This document shows, piece by piece, positions 26,704-37,792 of a stretch of DNA of 64,000 bases (positions are counted from its first letter, which is position 1; each line of letters starts with the position of its first letter). The notes beneath the pieces were generated by a model. The model did no database searches. It saw nothing but the letters and a program-made list of their open reading frames with translations, and had not been told where the DNA came from. Origin of the DNA: Pseudomonadota bacterium (lineage in GTDB: Bacteria; Pseudomonadota; Alphaproteobacteria; Acetobacterales; Acetobacteraceae); NCBI GenBank assembly GCA_021798915.1, contig JAJZBM010000004.1, forward strand, positions 62,001-126,000. The letters run 5' to 3'. Made by a program: the position numbers and the translations under genes.

Positions 26704-27606
26704 TCATGTCCGCCGACGCGCCAGCGGGTGATGCCGTGCAACCGCCGCTTGCAGCCGCTCGGTGGTGAGATGGGTATAGATCTCCGTCGTCGCGATGGCG
26801 CTGTGGCCGAGCAGGGTCTGCAAGCTGCGGAGATCGGCGCCGTTGGCGAGCAGATGGGTCGCAAACGAGTGGCGCAGCACGTGCGGCGAGACCGCAACCG
26901 GGTCGAGACCGGCGGAAAGCGCGGCCTGTTTGAGGAGCAGGGCGAGGCCCTGGCGGGTCATCGGGCGGCGCGGATCGCGGCCTGGAAACAGCCATCGCCC
27001 CGGCTTCCGCCCGGCTGGCGTTTCCTGCCCGGCGAGCAGGCGCTCGGCCGCCGCAACGGCCGCCGGCGACAGCGGCACCAGACGCTCCTTGCCGCCCTTG
27101 CCGCGCACCAGAATAGCCGCTTCGCCAGCGGTGATGGCGGAGGGCGACAGCGCGAGCAGTTCGGAAACCCGGAGCCCGGTCGCGTATAGCAGTTCCAGCG
27201 CCGCGACCGCGGTCGCCCCGCTCCTTCCGGGAAGCCGCCCCGCCGCATCGAGGAGGGCGATGATCTCCGCGGGCGTGAGAAATTTCGGCAAAGGCTTGCC
27301 GGGGCGCGGCGAATCGAGCCCGGCGCTCGGGTCGTCCTCACGCACCCCCTCGCGTAGCAGAAAACGATAGAACTGGCGGAGCGCGGAGAGATGCCGCGCC
27401 TGGCTCCGCGCCGCCAGACCCCGGGCGCGGAGGCTGCCGAGATAGGCGCGGAGCAGCGCCGGTTCGGCCGCGCTGAGCGAAATGCCGTATCCCGCGGCAA
27501 ACGCCGCGAAATCCTCGAGATCGGCGCGATAGGCATCCCTGGTGTTGGCGGCGGCATCGCGTTCGGCGGCGAGCATTTCCAGAAACGCCTCGATATGGCG
27601 GTCCAT
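26704..27606 (-). CDS. xerD: Tyrosine recombinase XerD
   Basis: Site-specific recombinase of 300 residues that resolves chromosome dimers at dif with XerC. An N-terminal SAM-like core-binding domain (1-90) is followed by the catalytic domain with the full set Arg146, Lys170, His242-x-x-Arg245, His268 and Tyr277 (HVLRHSFATHLL, LGHSAIATTEIYTH). The length, single-domain build and housekeeping neighbours argue for XerD rather than a phage integrase. Confidence 0.93.
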   Translation of the reverse strand: MDRHIEAFLEMLAAERDAAANTRDAYRADLEDFAAFAAGYGISLSAAEPALLRAYLGSLRARGLAARSQARHLSALRQFYRFLLREGVREDDPSAGLDSPRPGKPLPKFLTPAEIIALLDAAGRLPGRSGATAVAALELLYATGLRVSELLALSPSAITAGEAAILVRGKGGKERLVPLSPAAVAAAERLLAGQETPAGRKPGRWLFPGRDPRRPMTRQGLALLLKQAALSAGLDPVAVSPHVLRHSFATHLLANGADLRSLQTLLGHSAIATTEIYTHLTTERLQAAVARHHPLARRRT

Positions 27607-27621
27607 GGCGGCTCGCCGGGA

Positions 27622-27768
27622 TCAGCGCGGCGCTGCCGGACGCGCGAGCGGCAGGGTCTTTTCGACCATCGCGGTGTGCGGCGCCGGCGGGAAGACGCCG
27701 AGCACCAGCACGCCGATGCCGGCGGCGATGATCCCGAGCAGAACCACGATCAGCAGGGTTATGCGCAT
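27622..27768 (-). CDS. Small single-pass membrane protein, function unknown
   Basis: A 48-residue product that begins MRITLLIVVLLGIIAAGIG, one hydrophobic segment, with a proline-rich tail. AGAGAG precedes the ATG. It sits 15 bases upstream of xerD on the same strand and back to back with aroKB; only 49 bases remain for the two divergent promoters. Coding is supported by the start, ribosome site and hydrophobic profile, not by a recognised family. Confidence 0.6.
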   Translation of the reverse strand: MRITLLIVVLLGIIAAGIGVLVLGVFPPAPHTAMVEKTLPLARPAAPR

Positions 27769-27817
27769 GCGCTCTCTCTTGGCGTTGGGCTTCGCCCCTG
27801 TGCTAGCTTCCGCCATC

Positions 27818-29503
27818 ATGATACGCAACACTGAGCCATCCGCCGACACCCCGCCAGGGGACGACATCGCCGCCCTCGCCGGGCGCTCCCTGGTCCTGAT
27901 CGGCCTCATGGGGGCAGGGAAAACCTCGATCGGCCGGCGACTCGCCGCCCGTCTCGATCTCCCCTTCTTCGATGCCGACGCCGAAATCGAGGCCGCCGCC
28001 GGGCTCAGCATCGCCGAACTCTTCGCCCGCTACGGCGAGCGCGAATTCCGCGACGGCGAGCGGCGGGTGATCCAGCGCCTGCTCGCCGGGCCGCCGATGG
28101 TGCTCGCGACCGGCGGCGGCGCCTTTCTCGACCCGGCGACGCGGGCCGAAATCAGCGCCCGCGCGGTCTCGCTGTGGCTGCGCTGCCCGATCGCCATTCT
28201 CGCCCGGCGGGTTGCCGGGCGAACCCATCGGCCCCTGCTCGCCGACGGCGATCCGGCCGAGATCCTGACCCGCCTGCAAGCGGAACGGGCGCCGCTCTAT
28301 GCCGAGGCGGAGATCATCGTCGATTGTGCGGACGAGACGCTGGAGGCGACGACGCGGCGGGTGCTCACGGCGATCGCCGGTTATCGCTCGCCGCGCCGGC
28401 TGCGGGTGCCGCTCGCGACCCAGCCCTATGACATCGTCGTCGGGGAGGGACTGATCGACCGCGCCGGCGCGCTGCTCGCCCCGATTCTGCCGCAAAAGCG
28501 CGCCGTCATCATCAGCGACGCGACGGTCGCACCGCTGTACCTCGCGCGTCTCGAGGCCAGCCTCGCCGCAACTGCGATCGCCTGCGAAAGCCTGATCGTC
28601 GCGGCCGGCGAGGACAGCAAATCGATCGACAGCTACGCGCGGCTGGTCGATGGCCTGCTCGGCTTCGGGATCGAGCGCAAAACCGCGGTGATCGCACTCG
28701 GCGGCGGCGTGGTCGGCGATCTCGCCGGTTTCGCCGCCGCAACCACGCTACGCGGCCTGCCTTTCGTGCAGATTCCGACGACGCTGCTCGCCCAGGTCGA
28801 TTCGAGCGTCGGCGGCAAGACCGGCGTCAACACGGCGCGCGGCAAGAATCTGGTCGGCGCCTTCCACCAGCCGCATGTGGTGCTCGCCGACACCGCGACG
28901 CTGGCGAGCCTCCCGCCTCGTGAATTGCGCGCCGGCTACGCCGAAATCGTCAAGGCCGGGCTGATCGGCGATGCCGATTTCTTCGCCTGGTGCGAAACGC
29001 ATGGCGCGCGCGTCATCGCCGGCGATCGTGCCCTGCAGGCGGAGGCGATTCTCCGCGCCGCTTCCTTCAAGGCGGCGGTGGTCGGCGATGACGAGCGCGA
29101 GGAGAAGCCGGCCGATGGCCGGGCGCTCCTCAATCTCGGGCATAGTTTCGGCCATGCTCTGGAGGCGGAATGCGGCTATGGCCGGATTCTGCATGGCGAG
29201 GCGGTGGCGATCGGCCTTGGTCTCGCGTTTCTGCTCTCCGCCCGGCTAGGCCATTGCGCGGCCGCCGACGCCGAACGGGTGATCGCCCATATCAGCGCCG
29301 TTGGCCTTCCGGCGCGCCTCGCCGATCTCGGCCGGCCGCTCTCGGCGCGGGCGTTGATCGCCCATATGCGTCATGACAAGAAAATGCGCGATGGCCGCCT
29401 CGCCTTCGTGCTGGCGCGCGGGATCGGCGCCGCCTTCACCTCGCGCGAGGTCGCCGAAGACGCGGTGCGCGACCTCCTCCGTGACCAAGGCTGCGCGGAA
29501 TGA
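27818..29503 (+). CDS. aroKB: Bifunctional shikimate kinase/3-dehydroquinate synthase fusion
   Basis: One uninterrupted frame of 561 codons encodes two shikimate-pathway enzymes. Residues about 20-190 are shikimate kinase: Walker A GLMGAGKTS (29-37), DADAEIE, FRDGERRVI and VLATGGGAF. Residues about 195-561 are 3-dehydroquinate synthase: GGGVVGDLAGFAAAT, PTTLLAQVDSSVGGKTGVN, and metal ligands in LNLGHSFGHALE and LHGEAVAIGL. The linker is only a few residues (GYRSPRRLRV). In most proteobacteria aroK and aroB are adjacent separate genes. ATG 27818 precedes no strong ribosome site; slightly later starts are possible. Confidence 0.93.
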   Translation: MIRNTEPSADTPPGDDIAALAGRSLVLIGLMGAGKTSIGRRLAARLDLPFFDADAEIEAAAGLSIAELFARYGEREFRDGERRVIQRLLAGPPMVLATGGGAFLDPATRAEISARAVSLWLRCPIAILARRVAGRTHRPLLADGDPAEILTRLQAERAPLYAEAEIIVDCADETLEATTRRVLTAIAGYRSPRRLRVPLATQPYDIVVGEGLIDRAGALLAPILPQKRAVIISDATVAPLYLARLEASLAATAIACESLIVAAGEDSKSIDSYARLVDGLLGFGIERKTAVIALGGGVVGDLAGFAAATTLRGLPFVQIPTTLLAQVDSSVGGKTGVNTARGKNLVGAFHQPHVVLADTATLASLPPRELRAGYAEIVKAGLIGDADFFAWCETHGARVIAGDRALQAEAILRAASFKAAVVGDDEREEKPADGRALLNLGHSFGHALEAECGYGRILHGEAVAIGLGLAFLLSARLGHCAAADAERVIAHISAVGLPARLADLGRPLSARALIAHMRHDKKMRDGRLAFVLARGIGAAFTSREVAEDAVRDLLRDQGCAE

Positions 29504-30608: not shown

Positions 30609-31694
30609 TCACGCCGGATACTCGAAATCGAGAAACGAAACATGGGCCGCAACGATCCGCCAGCGGCCCGCCATGCGGATCCAGGTCTGCATCTGTCGCC
30701 CGGTGCGGCCGCTGTCGTTGCGGCGAAAGAGCGTGCTCGCGGTGCCGGCATCGCGGCCGAAGGTGGTGACGACGGTGCCGGCGAGATCGCGCGCCATCCA
30801 CACGCCATCGGTCTTTTCCCTGATCTCGCGCTGGGCCTCGAGATAGAGGGCGATCTCATCGCCGCCATACTGGTGCTCCGCCAAGCCGTAGCGGACGACA
30901 TGCGGGCTCGCCCAGAAAAACGCCGCGAGCGCCGCGAAATCGCCGGCCACCAGCGCCGCTTCGTAACGATAAAAAACCGCCCGCAATTCGTCCCATGCCG
31001 GGGGGAGGTTGACCGCCGGGCCGCCCTCGTTTTTGGCAAGCGCCGCGAGCACCGCCGCCTCGTCGGCGACCCAGCCGAAAATACCGCCCTGGGCGGTAAT
31101 CATGGCGAGGGCAGCCTGATGAAAATGCGGAAAATAGGAGCCGGTGCCGTCTGACACGACGACACATTCATAGCCACGATCATTGGCTTCGCGAAGCGTC
31201 GTCTGGACGCACACCTCGGTGGTGACGCCGCAGATCACCAGCTGACGAATGCCGCGATGATGCAGGATCGCTTCGAGATCGGTTGCATGGAAGGCGCCTT
31301 TGCCGGGCTTGTCGATCACCGGCTCATCGTGCGCCGGGGCGAGTTCGGGGACGATCGCGTGACCGGCCTCGCCGCGCACCAAAAGCCTTCCCATCGGGCC
31401 GGGATCGCCGATCGCGCGCGTCGGCCGGCCACGCACGCGCTTGGCCGGCGGCAAATCCGAGAGATCCGGCCGATGCCCCTCGCGGGTATGGATCACCATC
31501 ATCCCCGCCGCCCGCGCCGCGGCGCGGAGCCGGCTGATCGGCGCGATCAAGCGCCGGAGCACGCAAGGATCATTGCCGAGGGCAGCGCCGAATCCGCCCG
31601 GCTCCAGAAAATCGCGCTGCATGTCGATGATCAGCAGCGCCGCGTGCGCCGGATCGAAATCGAACGGATAGGGTTGGGCAGCGATACTGACCAA
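30609..31694 (-). CDS. Isochorismatase-like (biuret hydrolase-type) amidase fused to an AtzH/HpxZ-like domain
   Basis: A two-domain, 361-residue protein. Residues 1-220 are a cysteine hydrolase of the isochorismatase superfamily with the triad Asp24 (LLIIDMQRDFL), Lys129 (DKPGKGAF) and Cys162 (GVTTEVCVQTT); the stretch after the Cys (REANDRGYE) resembles biuret hydrolases. Residues about 232-361 form a SnoaL-like domain of the AtzH/HpxZ type (YEAALVAGDF, VRYGLAEHQYGG, TWIRMAGRWRIVAAHVS). AtzH and HpxZ are known from 1-carboxybiuret and oxalurate breakdown. The start is a TTG at 31694 with AGGAG upstream; no ATG is available. Probable substrate: a small ureide or amide. Confidence 0.85.
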   Translation of the reverse strand: MVSIAAQPYPFDFDPAHAALLIIDMQRDFLEPGGFGAALGNDPCVLRRLIAPISRLRAAARAAGMMVIHTREGHRPDLSDLPPAKRVRGRPTRAIGDPGPMGRLLVRGEAGHAIVPELAPAHDEPVIDKPGKGAFHATDLEAILHHRGIRQLVICGVTTEVCVQTTLREANDRGYECVVVSDGTGSYFPHFHQAALAMITAQGGIFGWVADEAAVLAALAKNEGGPAVNLPPAWDELRAVFYRYEAALVAGDFAALAAFFWASPHVVRYGLAEHQYGGDEIALYLEAQREIREKTDGVWMARDLAGTVVTTFGRDAGTASTLFRRNDSGRTGRQMQTWIRMAGRWRIVAAHVSFLDFEYPA

Positions 31695-31819
31695 GGTCGT
31701 TGCTCCTCATTCTCACGCTCTCGCGACGTCAGAGCGCGCTCATGAACAGCAAGCGGCGTGCCAAACCGGGAAAACCCTAACGGAAAAAACGACCACGCCC
31801 GGCGACGACGCGCGCGCCG

Positions 31820-34791: not shown

Positions 34792-35193
34792 TCAGCCCCC
34801 CGCAACCTGGCGCGGCAAGGCGAGAAGATCCTTCATCACCTGCAAATGTGCCATGAACGGATGGAGATCGCCCTCGATGGTCATCTCCCCGCGCTTGGTC
34901 AAGGCAAAAAGATCGTGCCAGCCGGGCGGCGGTGGCGCCTGCCAGAAACGCTCCCAACCGAGCACCGAGCCACGCACCGCGAAACGCCAAGCACGCATCA
35001 GATGCGGCCCGCGCGCCAGATGCAACCGCATGCCGCGTTCCAGCGTGACGAGAAACGGAATCGCGCCGATGCCGATCAGGCAGGTCACGCCCAATGCGGC
35101 ACCACGCCGGCAGAGATCGTCATCTTTGGCGAGCAGCGACGCCAACGCCTCGAAACGCCGCGCCAACCCCTCCGCCGCTTCCGCGTCACTCAT
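34792..35193 (-). CDS. Small SCP2-like protein, function unknown
   Basis: A 133-residue soluble protein beginning MSDAEAAEGLARRFEALA. The central part (AIPFLVTLERGMRLHL) and the end (EMTIEGDLHPFMAHLQVMKDLLALPR) resemble sterol-carrier-type (SCP2) modules, but the match is by eye and weak. It is the first gene of a four-gene coupled group running to 31820. It could be a ligand carrier or a subunit for one of the enzymes. Confidence 0.65.
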   Translation of the reverse strand: MSDAEAAEGLARRFEALASLLAKDDDLCRRGAALGVTCLIGIGAIPFLVTLERGMRLHLARGPHLMRAWRFAVRGSVLGWERFWQAPPPPGWHDLFALTKRGEMTIEGDLHPFMAHLQVMKDLLALPRQVAGG

Positions 35194-35205
35194 CCGCCCA
35201 ATTCT

Positions 35206-35253
35206 CCCAACGATGTGGCCTCCCAACGATGTGGCCTCCCAGCCATGTGGCAC
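35206..35253. repeat. Three tandem 16-bp repeats
   Basis: Two identical copies of CCCAACGATGTGGCCT (35206-35221, 35222-35237) are followed by a third, diverged copy CCCAGCCATGTGGCAC (35238-35253). It is located 13 bases upstream of the SCP2-like start in the 143-base gap after livF. The position fits iterated regulator sites for the downstream group or a slipped-strand duplication. GTGGC followed by GCCAC at the right end makes a small hairpin. Confidence 0.8.
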
Positions 35254-35336
35254 GTGAGCCACAGCGGGGCCGCTCCAGTAAATTCGGCCCGTTTTGCTTG
35301 CTTTGCAGCGAGCCTAGGTTTTTCGTCCCATCCCCG

Positions 35337-36065
35337 TCAAGCTGGCGCCAGCCGCCCAGCGCCGACATAAGCCGAGACCACCAGCGGATCATCGCGCAAT
35401 TCCGCCGCCGGCGCCGCGGCGACGATGGCGCCGTCGGCGAGCACGATGGCGCGATCGGCAAACCGCAAGGCGGCGCGGGCGTTCTGTTCGACGACCAGGA
35501 TCGCGACCGCGGAAAGCCTGGCCAGTGCTGCGTAGAGTTCATGCACGATCCGTGGCGCAAGCCCGGTCGAAGGCTCATCGAGCAGCAAAATCCGTGGCTC
35601 TCCCATCAGCGCGCGGCCGATCGCGACCATCTGCTGCTCACCGCCGGAAAGCAGTCCGGCGGCGCGGCCGAGCAGGGGTTGAAGACGCGGAAAAATCTCC
35701 AGCACCGCCTCGCGCCGCCGCATCCGCGCCGCTGCCCCCGCGCCCGCCGCCCCGAGTTCGAGGTTTTCCGCGACACTCATCATCGGAAAGAGCTGCCGCC
35801 CCTCCGGGCAATAACCGAGACCAGCGCGCGCCCGCGCGGCGATCGAAGCGCTATCGAGCCCCTCCCCGGCCAGACGGATTTGCCCGGCGCTCAGCGGAAT
35901 CTGGCCCATGATGGCCCGCAGCAGCGTGGTCTTGCCGGCACCATTGGCGCCGATCACGGCGAGGCGTTCGCCGGGCGCGAGAGTGAAATTGATCCCGCGC
36001 AGGATCACCACCCGGCGATATCCGGCGGAAATCGACGCGACTTCGAGAAGCGCGTCCGCGCTCAT
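35337..36065 (-). CDS. Liv-type ABC transporter ATP-binding protein (LivF-like)
   Basis: A 242-residue ATPase. Walker A is GANGAGKTT, the signature LSGGEQQMV, Walker B ILLLDEPSTGLAP, and the H-loop region LVVEQN, typical LivF. Its ATG overlaps the stop of the fused permease-ATPase gene by 4 bases. It provides the second nucleotide-binding subunit of this importer. Confidence 0.93.
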   Translation of the reverse strand: MSADALLEVASISAGYRRVVILRGINFTLAPGERLAVIGANGAGKTTLLRAIMGQIPLSAGQIRLAGEGLDSASIAARARAGLGYCPEGRQLFPMMSVAENLELGAAGAGAAARMRRREAVLEIFPRLQPLLGRAAGLLSGGEQQMVAIGRALMGEPRILLLDEPSTGLAPRIVHELYAALARLSAVAILVVEQNARAALRFADRAIVLADGAIVAAAPAAELRDDPLVVSAYVGAGRLAPA

Positions 36066-37792
36066 GACGCAAGCGCCATCGCGTCTACGCCGAGATAGGC
36101 TTCGATCACCACCGGATCGGCGAGCACCGCGTCCGGCGCGCCCTCGGCGATGGTCTGGCCGTTGTCCAGCACCAGCGCGCGCATGGCCAGTGGCGCGATC
36201 GCCGGCAGCACGTGCTCGATCGCGATGATCGCAGTGCCGCGCCCCGCCGCCGCGCGGAGCACCGCCTGCACGCGCGCGATCTCGGCCACCGTCATCCCCG
36301 CCATCGCCTCGTCGAGCAGCAGCACCGCCGGGGCGAGCGCCAGCGCACGGGCGATTTCGAGCAGACGCTGGCGCCCCGGCGGCAGCGCGTCCGGAAAGCG
36401 TTCGGCATCGCCGACAAGGTCGGTCGCGACGAGCAGGGCGCTCGTCGCCTGCTCGGCATCGCGCCAGCGAGGATGGTGGGATGTGGCGGCGAGGAGTACG
36501 GTCTCGAATACCGTAAGGCGGGGAAAAAGGCGGCTGGTCTGGAACGTCCGCGCAAGGCCGGCGCGGGCGAGGAGATGCGGCGGCATCGTGCCGCGGGGCG
36601 CGCCGCGAAAGCGGATCTCGCCGCTGCTGGGCGCGGAAAACGCCGAGAGCATATCAAACAACGTGCTTTTACCGGCACCGTTGGGGCCGATCACGGCGAG
36701 GATTTCCCCCGGCGCCACCGCGAGATCGACCCCGGCGACGGCAACGACGCCGCCGAAGCGCTTGCCCAGACCGCGGCAGGCCAAAACCGCGCTCTCGCCA
36801 TTGACTGCCACAGCCGCTGGCGCTTTTTCCATGGCCGTGGGCGTAAATGCCGTGGGCTTGAATACGCCAAGTGGCGGGCGGCGGAGCCATAAGCTGAGCG
36901 GCGGGATCGAGGCAAGGCCGCCCGGCATCGCGATCGCGAGCACCAGGGTGAGTGCTCCGAGGATGATCTGCTGTTCGGTCGGAAAACGCGCCCAGAGCAC
37001 GGTGCTGAGCAGCGAAATCAGGACGCCGCCGAGGACCGGGCCCCAAACCGTGCCGATGCCGCCGGCGAGCACCATCAAGACGGTCTGCAATTCGATGGTG
37101 CCGGCAAAGCCGCTGGCGGGGTCGATATAGCCGACATTGCGCGCGTACAGCGCGCCAGCAGCAGCGGCGAGACCGGCGCTCGCGCAAAACGCCATGACCT
37201 TGACGCGGCTGGTATCGACACCGGCGGCGGCGGCGGCGATCGCGTCGTCGCGGAGGGCGGCGAGGCGCAGCCCGAAACGCGCCCGGCTGATCGCCATGGT
37301 CAGCGCGACCGCCCCGGTCGCCAGCGCCACCATCGCCATCGCCGTCGCCGCCGGCCCTTCGGCGGTCGGGATCGAGGTGCCCATCGGCCCGCCGGTGATC
37401 GCGAGCGCATTGACGATGATTTGCGCGACACGGGCGAGACCGAACATGCCGAGCGCGAAGAAAATACCCGAGAGGCGCAGCATGATGCGCCCGAGCGGCC
37501 AGGCGAGGAGGGCGGCGAGAGAGGCGGCGAGGACGATGGCGAGCGGCCAGGGCAGCGCCCAGGTCAGCATCGCCAGCGCGCCGGCATAGGCGCCGAGCCC
37601 GAAGAATGCGACCTGCCCGAACGAGACATAGCCCGCCATGCCGCCGATCAGGTTCCAGCCCACCGCCAGCGTCACCGCGAGCGCGGTCGAAAACAGCAAT
37701 TGCACGACATAGGCGTTGGCGCCGAGGGCGATCATCACGCCGGCGAGGGCGAGCCCGGCGAGAACCACGATTTCGATGATCAGCCGCGTCAT
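36062..37792 (-). CDS. Fused LivM permease-LivG ATPase of a Liv-type ABC transporter
   Basis: A single 576-codon frame. Residues 1 to about 310 are a LivM-type permease (GWNLIGGMAGYVSFGQVAFFGLGAYAGALA; VLAGGIGTVWGPVLGGVLI). Residues about 335-576 are a LivG-type ATPase with Walker A GPNGAGKST, a divergent signature region LPPGRQRLLEIARAL and Walker B VLLLDEAMAGM. A roughly 25-residue Ala-rich linker joins them. Fused LivM-LivG subunits are known in this family. It is flanked by livH (7 bases) and livF (4-base overlap). Confidence 0.92.
   Translation of the reverse strand: MTRLIIEIVVLAGLALAGVMIALGANAYVVQLLFSTALAVTLAVGWNLIGGMAGYVSFGQVAFFGLGAYAGALAMLTWALPWPLAIVLAASLAALLAWPLGRIMLRLSGIFFALGMFGLARVAQIIVNALAITGGPMGTSIPTAEGPAATAMAMVALATGAVALTMAISRARFGLRLAALRDDAIAAAAAGVDTSRVKVMAFCASAGLAAAAGALYARNVGYIDPASGFAGTIELQTVLMVLAGGIGTVWGPVLGGVLISLLSTVLWARFPTEQQIILGALTLVLAIAMPGGLASIPPLSLWLRRPPLGVFKPTAFTPTAMEKAPAAVAVNGESAVLACRGLGKRFGGVVAVAGVDLAVAPGEILAVIGPNGAGKSTLFDMLSAFSAPSSGEIRFRGAPRGTMPPHLLARAGLARTFQTSRLFPRLTVFETVLLAATSHHPRWRDAEQATSALLVATDLVGDAERFPDALPPGRQRLLEIARALALAPAVLLLDEAMAGMTVAEIARVQAVLRAAAGRGTAIIAIEHVLPAIAPLAMRALVLDNGQTIAEGAPDAVLADPVVIEAYLGVDAMALAS

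Follow-up and report, generated by a model that had tools for sequence, protein, structure and literature searches.

Triuret hydrolase (TrtA) of Herbaspirillum sp. BH-1 is described as a stand-alone, dimeric protein of ~24 kDa (PDB 6XIX, 6XJE and 6XJ4; PMC7948467). The carboxybiuret that it produces is reported to have a half-life of ~20 minutes, and a decarboxylase gene, trtB, is named in the company of TrtA, BiuH and AtzD (PMC7948467); trtB is also reported in triuret clusters of ammonia-oxidizing bacteria (PMC12625717). AtzH of Pseudomonas sp. ADP (PDB 6BJT; PMC6219798), likewise a dimer, has the DUF3225/NTF2 fold and is proposed to decarboxylate 1,3-dicarboxyurea, with Tyr22 as the key residue; a direct assay was not possible. 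Around its docked substrate lie Arg46, Arg63, Arg66, Arg73, Phe94, Arg96, Gln106 and Gln108 (PMC6219798).

In the window (the whole stretch of DNA that was analysed, 64,000 nucleotides), a protein resembling TrtA and one resembling AtzH are joined in a single chain. The gene occupies positions 30609-31694 of the minus strand and encodes 361 residues from a TTG start, as delimited by the open reading frame, Pfam and an orthologue from the same genus (L207:9775-10860); a Shine-Dalgarno-like GAGGAG, read from the sequence, lies 8 bases upstream of the TTG (31703-31708, minus strand). Residues 1-222 (31029-31694, minus strand) form a TrtA-type isochorismatase-like hydrolase half, as judged from Pfam, the PDB match, residue positions and model superposition, and residues 227-361 (30609-31016, minus strand) form an AtzH-like half (DUF3225, NTF2 fold), assigned from the PDB match, alignments, a model and Foldseek. 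Between them, the Pfam domain limits leave a short linker at approximately residues 221-226 (31017-31034, minus strand), with few residues that are weakly constrained between the two fusion genes. In the 361-residue protein, Pfam places the Isochorismatase domain at residues 18-205 (156 bits, cut-off 27) and the AtzH-like domain (PF11533) at residues 228-356 (137 bits, gathering cut-off 27), confirming the single-chain architecture that a preliminary description had proposed for exactly this interval.

The orthologue, in genome G001, is an intact fusion of 361 residues, 80% identical to the window's protein over 360 residues, which makes a chance joining or an assembly artefact unlikely; its ATG start falls at the residue matching the TTG of the window's gene. 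The two halves of the window's gene are alike in third-position G+C (0.76 and 0.81), and dN/dS between the two fusion genes, from a simple Nei-Gojobori count with our own script, is 0.13 for the TrtA half and 0.20 for the AtzH half. We regard the fusion as real, conserved and rare, probably uniting two successive steps of a pathway already known, and we think it likely, from sequence comparison, that the protein is a bifunctional triuret hydrolase and carboxybiuret decarboxylase. Its chemistry would be ordinary and its packaging unusual, the new part being a fused variant of the known triuret pathway with predicted activities. The two-step ureide hydrolysis envisaged at the outset is probably right as to consecutive steps and probably wrong as to the second, for which decarboxylation is likelier than hydrolysis, AtzH being described as decarboxylating (PMC6219798).

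The N-terminal half has TrtA of Herbaspirillum as its best sequence match in the PDB (6XIX, 289 bits), followed by a second TrtA sequence and then by BiuH from Rhodococcus and Rhizobium; identity is ~59% to characterized TrtA and ~51% to BiuH (6AZO, 5BK6), a member of the same family with the same triad. In an alignment of 107 rows, it is identical to TrtA at all 14 positions compared, these being the substrate-binding residues and the residues differing between TrtA and BiuH that are named in PMC7948467. The Asp-Lys-Cys triad is complete, as had been claimed (Asp24-Lys129-Cys162), the contacts Glu72, Lys132 and Gln202 are present, and the six residues that discriminate TrtA from BiuH are all of the TrtA type (Phe35, Asn41, Ala134, Glu160, Tyr187 and Ile205). 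The alternative residue occupies every one of these six positions in 23 rows of the alignment, among them the reference BiuH and the BiuH encoded elsewhere in the window's genome, which has exactly the BiuH string at the 14 positions. The model of the N-terminal half (pLDDT mostly ~90) superposes on triuret-bound TrtA 6XJE with a TM score of 0.97 by target and an r.m.s.d. of 1.1 Å, so that the likeness to TrtA extends from the triad and the 14 residues to the fold. The NCBIfam BiuH model (NF050097) scores the fusion at 276 bits, short of its curated cut-off of 370. Residue pattern and missed cut-off together lead us to reject a BiuH identity for this half, and the surroundings of the triad, initially called biuret-hydrolase-like, are instead TrtA-type.

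The same TrtA-type site is found in all of the best 80 of 586 matching loci from a species collection, 74 of which carry the exact 14-residue string; the exceptions are four loci with Ser134, L012 with Leu205 and L048 with Tyr35. The G001 orthologue also has Tyr at position 35, as in BiuH, where TrtA has Phe, and so agrees with TrtA at 13 of 14 positions and at five of the six discriminating residues. In TrtA, the F35Y exchange is reported to leave <10% of the activity (PMC7948467). Tyr35 lowers our confidence in the bifunctional reading and raises it for an alternative in which the substrate of the N-terminal half is not triuret but another ureide, possibly one brought in by the ABC transporter encoded in the window. 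An identity of ~59% to characterized TrtA leaves room for such drift, and the local context in the window's genome lacks the nucleoside-type transporter of triuret clusters; the alternative is nonetheless unlikely, given that the window's protein keeps all 14 TrtA positions, that TrtA has been called ultraspecific (PMC7948467) and that the G001 orthologue lies inside a triuret-type cluster with BiuH and AtzF.

For the C-terminal half, a PDB sequence search returned no sequences at E ≤ 0.1 except AtzH (two entries), 2RCD and 2OWP. A separate model of this domain (pLDDT 93) has the AtzH fold, and the top 20 Foldseek matches to it all come from the AtzH, 2RCD and 2OWP proteins, with 41-44% identity to the AtzH chains in the Foldseek alignments; other NTF2-type proteins trail far behind. 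Sequence and structure searches alike thus rule out a closer kinship to other SnoaL domains, a possibility raised in the preliminary description as one that would overturn the assignment. The description of this half as AtzH/HpxZ-like also stands: besides the Pfam match, the HpxZ model (NF033625, oxalurate catabolism) matches it over its whole length at 130.6 bits, just under the curated cut-off of 135. A BiuH-HpxZ fusion for oxalurate was rejected because both NCBIfam cut-offs are missed.

Tyr244 and Arg268 of the fusion correspond to Tyr22 and Arg46 of AtzH and are kept in both fusions. Most of the remaining pocket is shared as well, Arg292, Arg302, Phe323, Arg325, Gln334 and Gln336 corresponding to AtzH positions 63, 73, 94, 96, 106 and 108. 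By contrast with AtzH, the equivalent of Arg66 is Thr295 in the window's protein, leaving the full arginine pocket incomplete, and a fusion-specific insert of seven residues precedes position 63, leaving the pairing of residues around 63-66 alignment-dependent. This dependence counts against the bifunctional reading, as does a Leu in the G001 orthologue at the position of Arg96, where the window's protein keeps Arg. The full-length model, poor in the C-terminal half (pLDDT <50 over most of residues 222-361), counts against it too. Finally, a C-terminal His tag on TrtA is reported to lower activity and to cause aggregation (PMC7948467), from which it follows that a domain added at this end is not obviously harmless.

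The window's genome (G000; 3.09 Mb in 61 contigs) contains one AtzH-like domain, that of the fusion. It encodes one BiuH (412 bits, cut-off 370) and one AtzF (709 bits, cut-off 511) above cut-off, 3.7 kb apart on another contig (C39), in a cluster in which NupA-BiuH-NupC-NupB-BmpA is divergent from AtzF-GntR; the position of the fusion gene outside this cluster is a further point against the bifunctional reading. In G001, however, the order is fusion-GntR-AtzF divergent from BmpA-NupB-NupC-formamidase-BiuH-NupA, the fusion thus keeping, like TrtA, the company of BiuH and AtzF, and the placement in the pathway has a second genome behind it. The gene has either moved out of the cluster in the lineage of the window's genome or moved into it in that of G001; six genomes of the genus were profile-searched for BiuH, of which four have it above cut-off (G000, G001, G003 and G004) and two have the fusion. 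No AtzE above the curated cut-off of 425.75 (TIGR02715) is found in either fusion genome (best scores 284 in G000 and 259 in G001; amidases exist in G000, all under this cut-off), and the known AtzH substrate should therefore not arise. The two domains, their catalytic residues, the downstream enzymes and the orthologue's pathway context are all read directly from these genomes.

In the window itself, the fusion gene lies at the end of a minus-strand run that includes a branched-chain/urea-type ABC transporter, an alpha/beta hydrolase and a 3-hydroxyisobutyrate-dehydrogenase-like enzyme. A single open reading frame (36062-37792, minus strand) combines a LivM-type permease (residues 29-284) with a LivG-type ATPase (residues 354-571) of such a transporter, and another within the transporter run (34792-35262, minus strand; 156 residues) matches nothing in Pfam or NCBIfam at E ≤ 0.001. 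On the plus strand, the translation of a long open reading frame at 27542-29503 reads, by eye, like shikimate kinase joined to 3-dehydroquinate synthase.

In the mechanism that we propose, Cys162 of the N-terminal half would attack the terminal carbonyl of triuret, converting triuret and water to carboxybiuret and NH3. The C-terminal half, with Tyr244 as proposed proton donor in an arginine-rich pocket, would then convert carboxybiuret, rather than the 1,3-dicarboxyurea of AtzH, to biuret and CO2, whereupon BiuH would yield allophanate and AtzF would break this down to ammonia and CO2, both of these enzymes being encoded elsewhere in the genome. The fusion would hold the unstable carboxybiuret beside the second active site, and a fused decarboxylase would help because of the short half-life of this intermediate. 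Both activities, the substrate of the C-terminal half and any channelling are predictions drawn from homology, residues and gene context.

A substrate with one carboxylate would bear on the fate of Arg66. We compared all 31 loci of the analysis in which an AtzH-like gene and a TrtA-type gene are separated by no more than ~11 kb, each gene being entered once; several are close relatives, and the loci are thus not independent. Arg66 is kept in all 19 loci with AtzE within ~4 kb of the AtzH gene (L002, L004, L012, L014, L036, L043, L048, L079, L081, L170, L202, L210, L211, L212 and L249-L253) and lost in all 12 without AtzE in the DNA examined, both fusions included (L045, L066, L074, L093, L094, L095, L207, L208, L209, L198/L248, L254 and the window), where it is replaced by Ala (five loci), Cys (three), Thr (two), Gln or Leu. 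Of these 12 loci, 11 (all but the window) have BiuH in the cluster, versus 3 of the 19 loci with AtzE, for some of which the DNA is short. Our reading is that the substrate is 1,3-dicarboxyurea, with two carboxylates, where AtzE is present, and carboxybiuret, with one, where it is absent; loss of Arg66 in the latter would be expected for this reason. The docking in PMC6219798 makes Arg66 a plausible substrate contact, but mutants of this residue are absent from the set whose rates fell significantly (PMC6219798), which counts against a strong role. One row counted as near TrtA (L116) was dropped from the set because the match there is to a distant family member (30%), and outside the 31, L124 lacks both Arg66 and Arg73, with no TrtA in its 3.4 kb.

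In six of the loci with AtzE (L012, L014, L043, L081, L079 and L002), TrtA lies near AtzE and an Arg66-type AtzH. AtzF is there as well, truncated at the edge of the locus in L043 and L081, and BiuH is absent from the DNA examined. The gene set has the look of a route from triuret that avoids biuret, running through TrtA, AtzEG, AtzH and AtzF; we know of no description of such a route.

Retention of the original AtzH activity was weighed against these patterns. In this alternative, the AtzH half would still decarboxylate 1,3-dicarboxyurea and the fusion would merely place an AtzH domain near TrtA. It accords with the 41-44% identity to AtzH chains, with the Arg96 equivalent kept in the window's genome and with the C-half tree built from all columns, which joins the fusion pair to four AtzH genes from the same family (100/95), three of these having AtzE as a neighbour. 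We nevertheless consider it very improbable, in that its substrate needs AtzEG while neither fusion genome has AtzE above cut-off, BiuH is present to serve a biuret route, and the Arg66 equivalent is lost. The AtzH-domain trees have few columns and are weakly resolved, and grouping with the four family genes is no longer resolved when the loop columns are left out. In neither of these trees do the fusion C-terminal halves group with the other Arg66-less AtzH genes of trtA clusters, which counts against the bifunctional reading and allows independent recruitment. Mapped onto the trees, the Arg66-less label needs four or seven changes, of which the starred branches force only two in either tree. 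The N-half tree (quick method) places the fusion pair, with a modest support of 84, with Acidiphilium, Acidocella and other Acetobacteraceae-like rows. One row from the window's family is identical to that of Acidiphilium rubrum, which makes the family probably Acetobacteraceae in a broad sense.

A history that we put forward tentatively and hold to be possible, somewhat below even chances, is that an AtzH-type domain from an AtzE-dependent lineage was recruited onto a triuret hydrolase as a channelling fusion and re-specialized from 1,3-dicarboxyurea to carboxybiuret through loss of Arg66, with other AtzE-less triuret clusters having lost this residue independently. If so, Arg66 would act as a switch from whose presence or absence the decarboxylation carried out by an AtzH-family protein could be read.

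The AtzH half might instead be a structural or regulatory module that contributes to oligomerization or stability without catalysis. Non-enzymatic roles are described for certain members of the NTF2 superfamily (PMC6219798), AtzH and TrtA both form dimers (PMC6219798, PMC7948467), and the Arg96 equivalent differs between the two fusions. Such a role is improbable all the same: both fusions, 80% identical overall, keep the equivalents of Tyr22 and Arg46 and most of the pocket, dN/dS for this half is 0.20, and stand-alone relatives in trtA clusters imply that attachment is unnecessary for their role there. The bifunctional reading, with carboxybiuret as the intermediate, remains the one that we favour.

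The fused form is rare in the samples searched. PF11533 finds an AtzH-like domain in 27 of 60 genomes (the window's own included), and among the loci scanned from these matches, the fused form occurs only in the window's genome and in G001; 5 of the 35 matches had no locus (G010, G020, G021, G029 and G033), and in these genomes a full-length family search found no match spanning both halves. A full-length fusion match was obtained in 1 of 385 genomes of the class (the window's own) and in 2 of 249 genomes of the family (the window's own and G001), in which search an alignment in G939 extends to residue 262 with two stops inside. No fusion is present among the best 80 of the 586 loci from the species collection. 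In Chelatococcus, the two halves are adjacent genes with a stop between them. Of 701 matching plasmid records, four cover at least 80% of the fusion query; three of these were inspected and are unfused, and the fourth (H2) was judged unfused from its listing, which names separate genes. Given these limited samples, the fusion may occur in other lineages. A literature search by title and the start of the abstract, with most subscription journals outside its scope, found no paper on a chain that combines triuret hydrolase with an AtzH-like domain; neither 'fused' nor 'fusion' occurs in PMC7948467.

As separate genes, the two halves are commoner neighbours than the preliminary description, which called these functions not usually encoded together, had supposed. 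An AtzH-like gene lies within the examined flanks of trtA in 12 of the best 80 loci, and the two also meet in clusters on plasmids of Pseudomonas, Cupriavidus and Allorhizobium; it is the fusion alone that is rare. Within the class, 28 genomes (the window's own included) contain an AtzH-like domain as well as a match of the TrtA/BiuH type; the distance between them is <10 kb in nine, counting the fusion itself, and 10.3 kb in one more. By our estimate, chance alone, with genomes of ~4.5 Mb, would produce far fewer than one such pair at <10 kb. A plasmid of Pseudomonas oryzihabitans carries the run atzF, bmpA, two permeases, formamidase, biuH, ATPase, trtA, 'hpxZ' and gntR, in which biuH and trtA are our assignments and trtA overlaps 'hpxZ' by four bases. 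Similar gene sets are found in Cupriavidus sp. KK10 and Allorhizobium pseudoryzae. The P. oryzihabitans gene annotated hpxZ (L093:12672-13079) scores 158.5 bits, above the HpxZ cut-off of 135; given its overlap with a TrtA-type gene and its place in a triuret-type cluster, the name, and the scope of the model, may mislead here.

Among described proteins, TrtB, named as a carboxybiuret decarboxylase in PMC7948467, resembles the C-terminal half in predicted reaction and in the gene company of TrtA and AtzD. Matches to PF09663 (AtzD) identified 13 AtzD genomes, for ten of which wider stretches were examined; TrtA is present in three of the ten (G588, G602 and G499). Within ~15 kb, both G588 and G602 combine TrtA, BiuH and the AtzD match with an AtzH-like gene that lacks Arg66; G499 has AtzE and Arg66. 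We suspect that TrtB is AtzH-like, a family membership that we infer, and if so the window's gene would be a TrtA-TrtB fusion. If the bifunctional reading is correct, the AtzH/DUF3225 family would gain a place in triuret and cyanuric acid breakdown, at the carboxybiuret step, its substrate would be predictable from a single residue (Arg66), and the fused protein would offer a ready means of asking whether linkage of hydrolase and decarboxylase speeds a nitrogen-scavenging pathway. A function would also be suggested for the uncharacterized structure 2OWP from Burkholderia xenovorans (Bxe_B1374), which has no Arg66 and branches with the AtzH-like gene from a Cupriavidus trtA cluster; we predict it to be a carboxybiuret decarboxylase.

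Escherichia accounts for 90 of the 701 matching plasmid records. In those listed there is a gene with 66.5% identity to the TrtA half (over query residues 6-208), and many come from poultry. Triuret is reported to be a product of uric acid oxidation (PMC7948467), and because of this origin, a link between these plasmid genes and bird hosts is conceivable.
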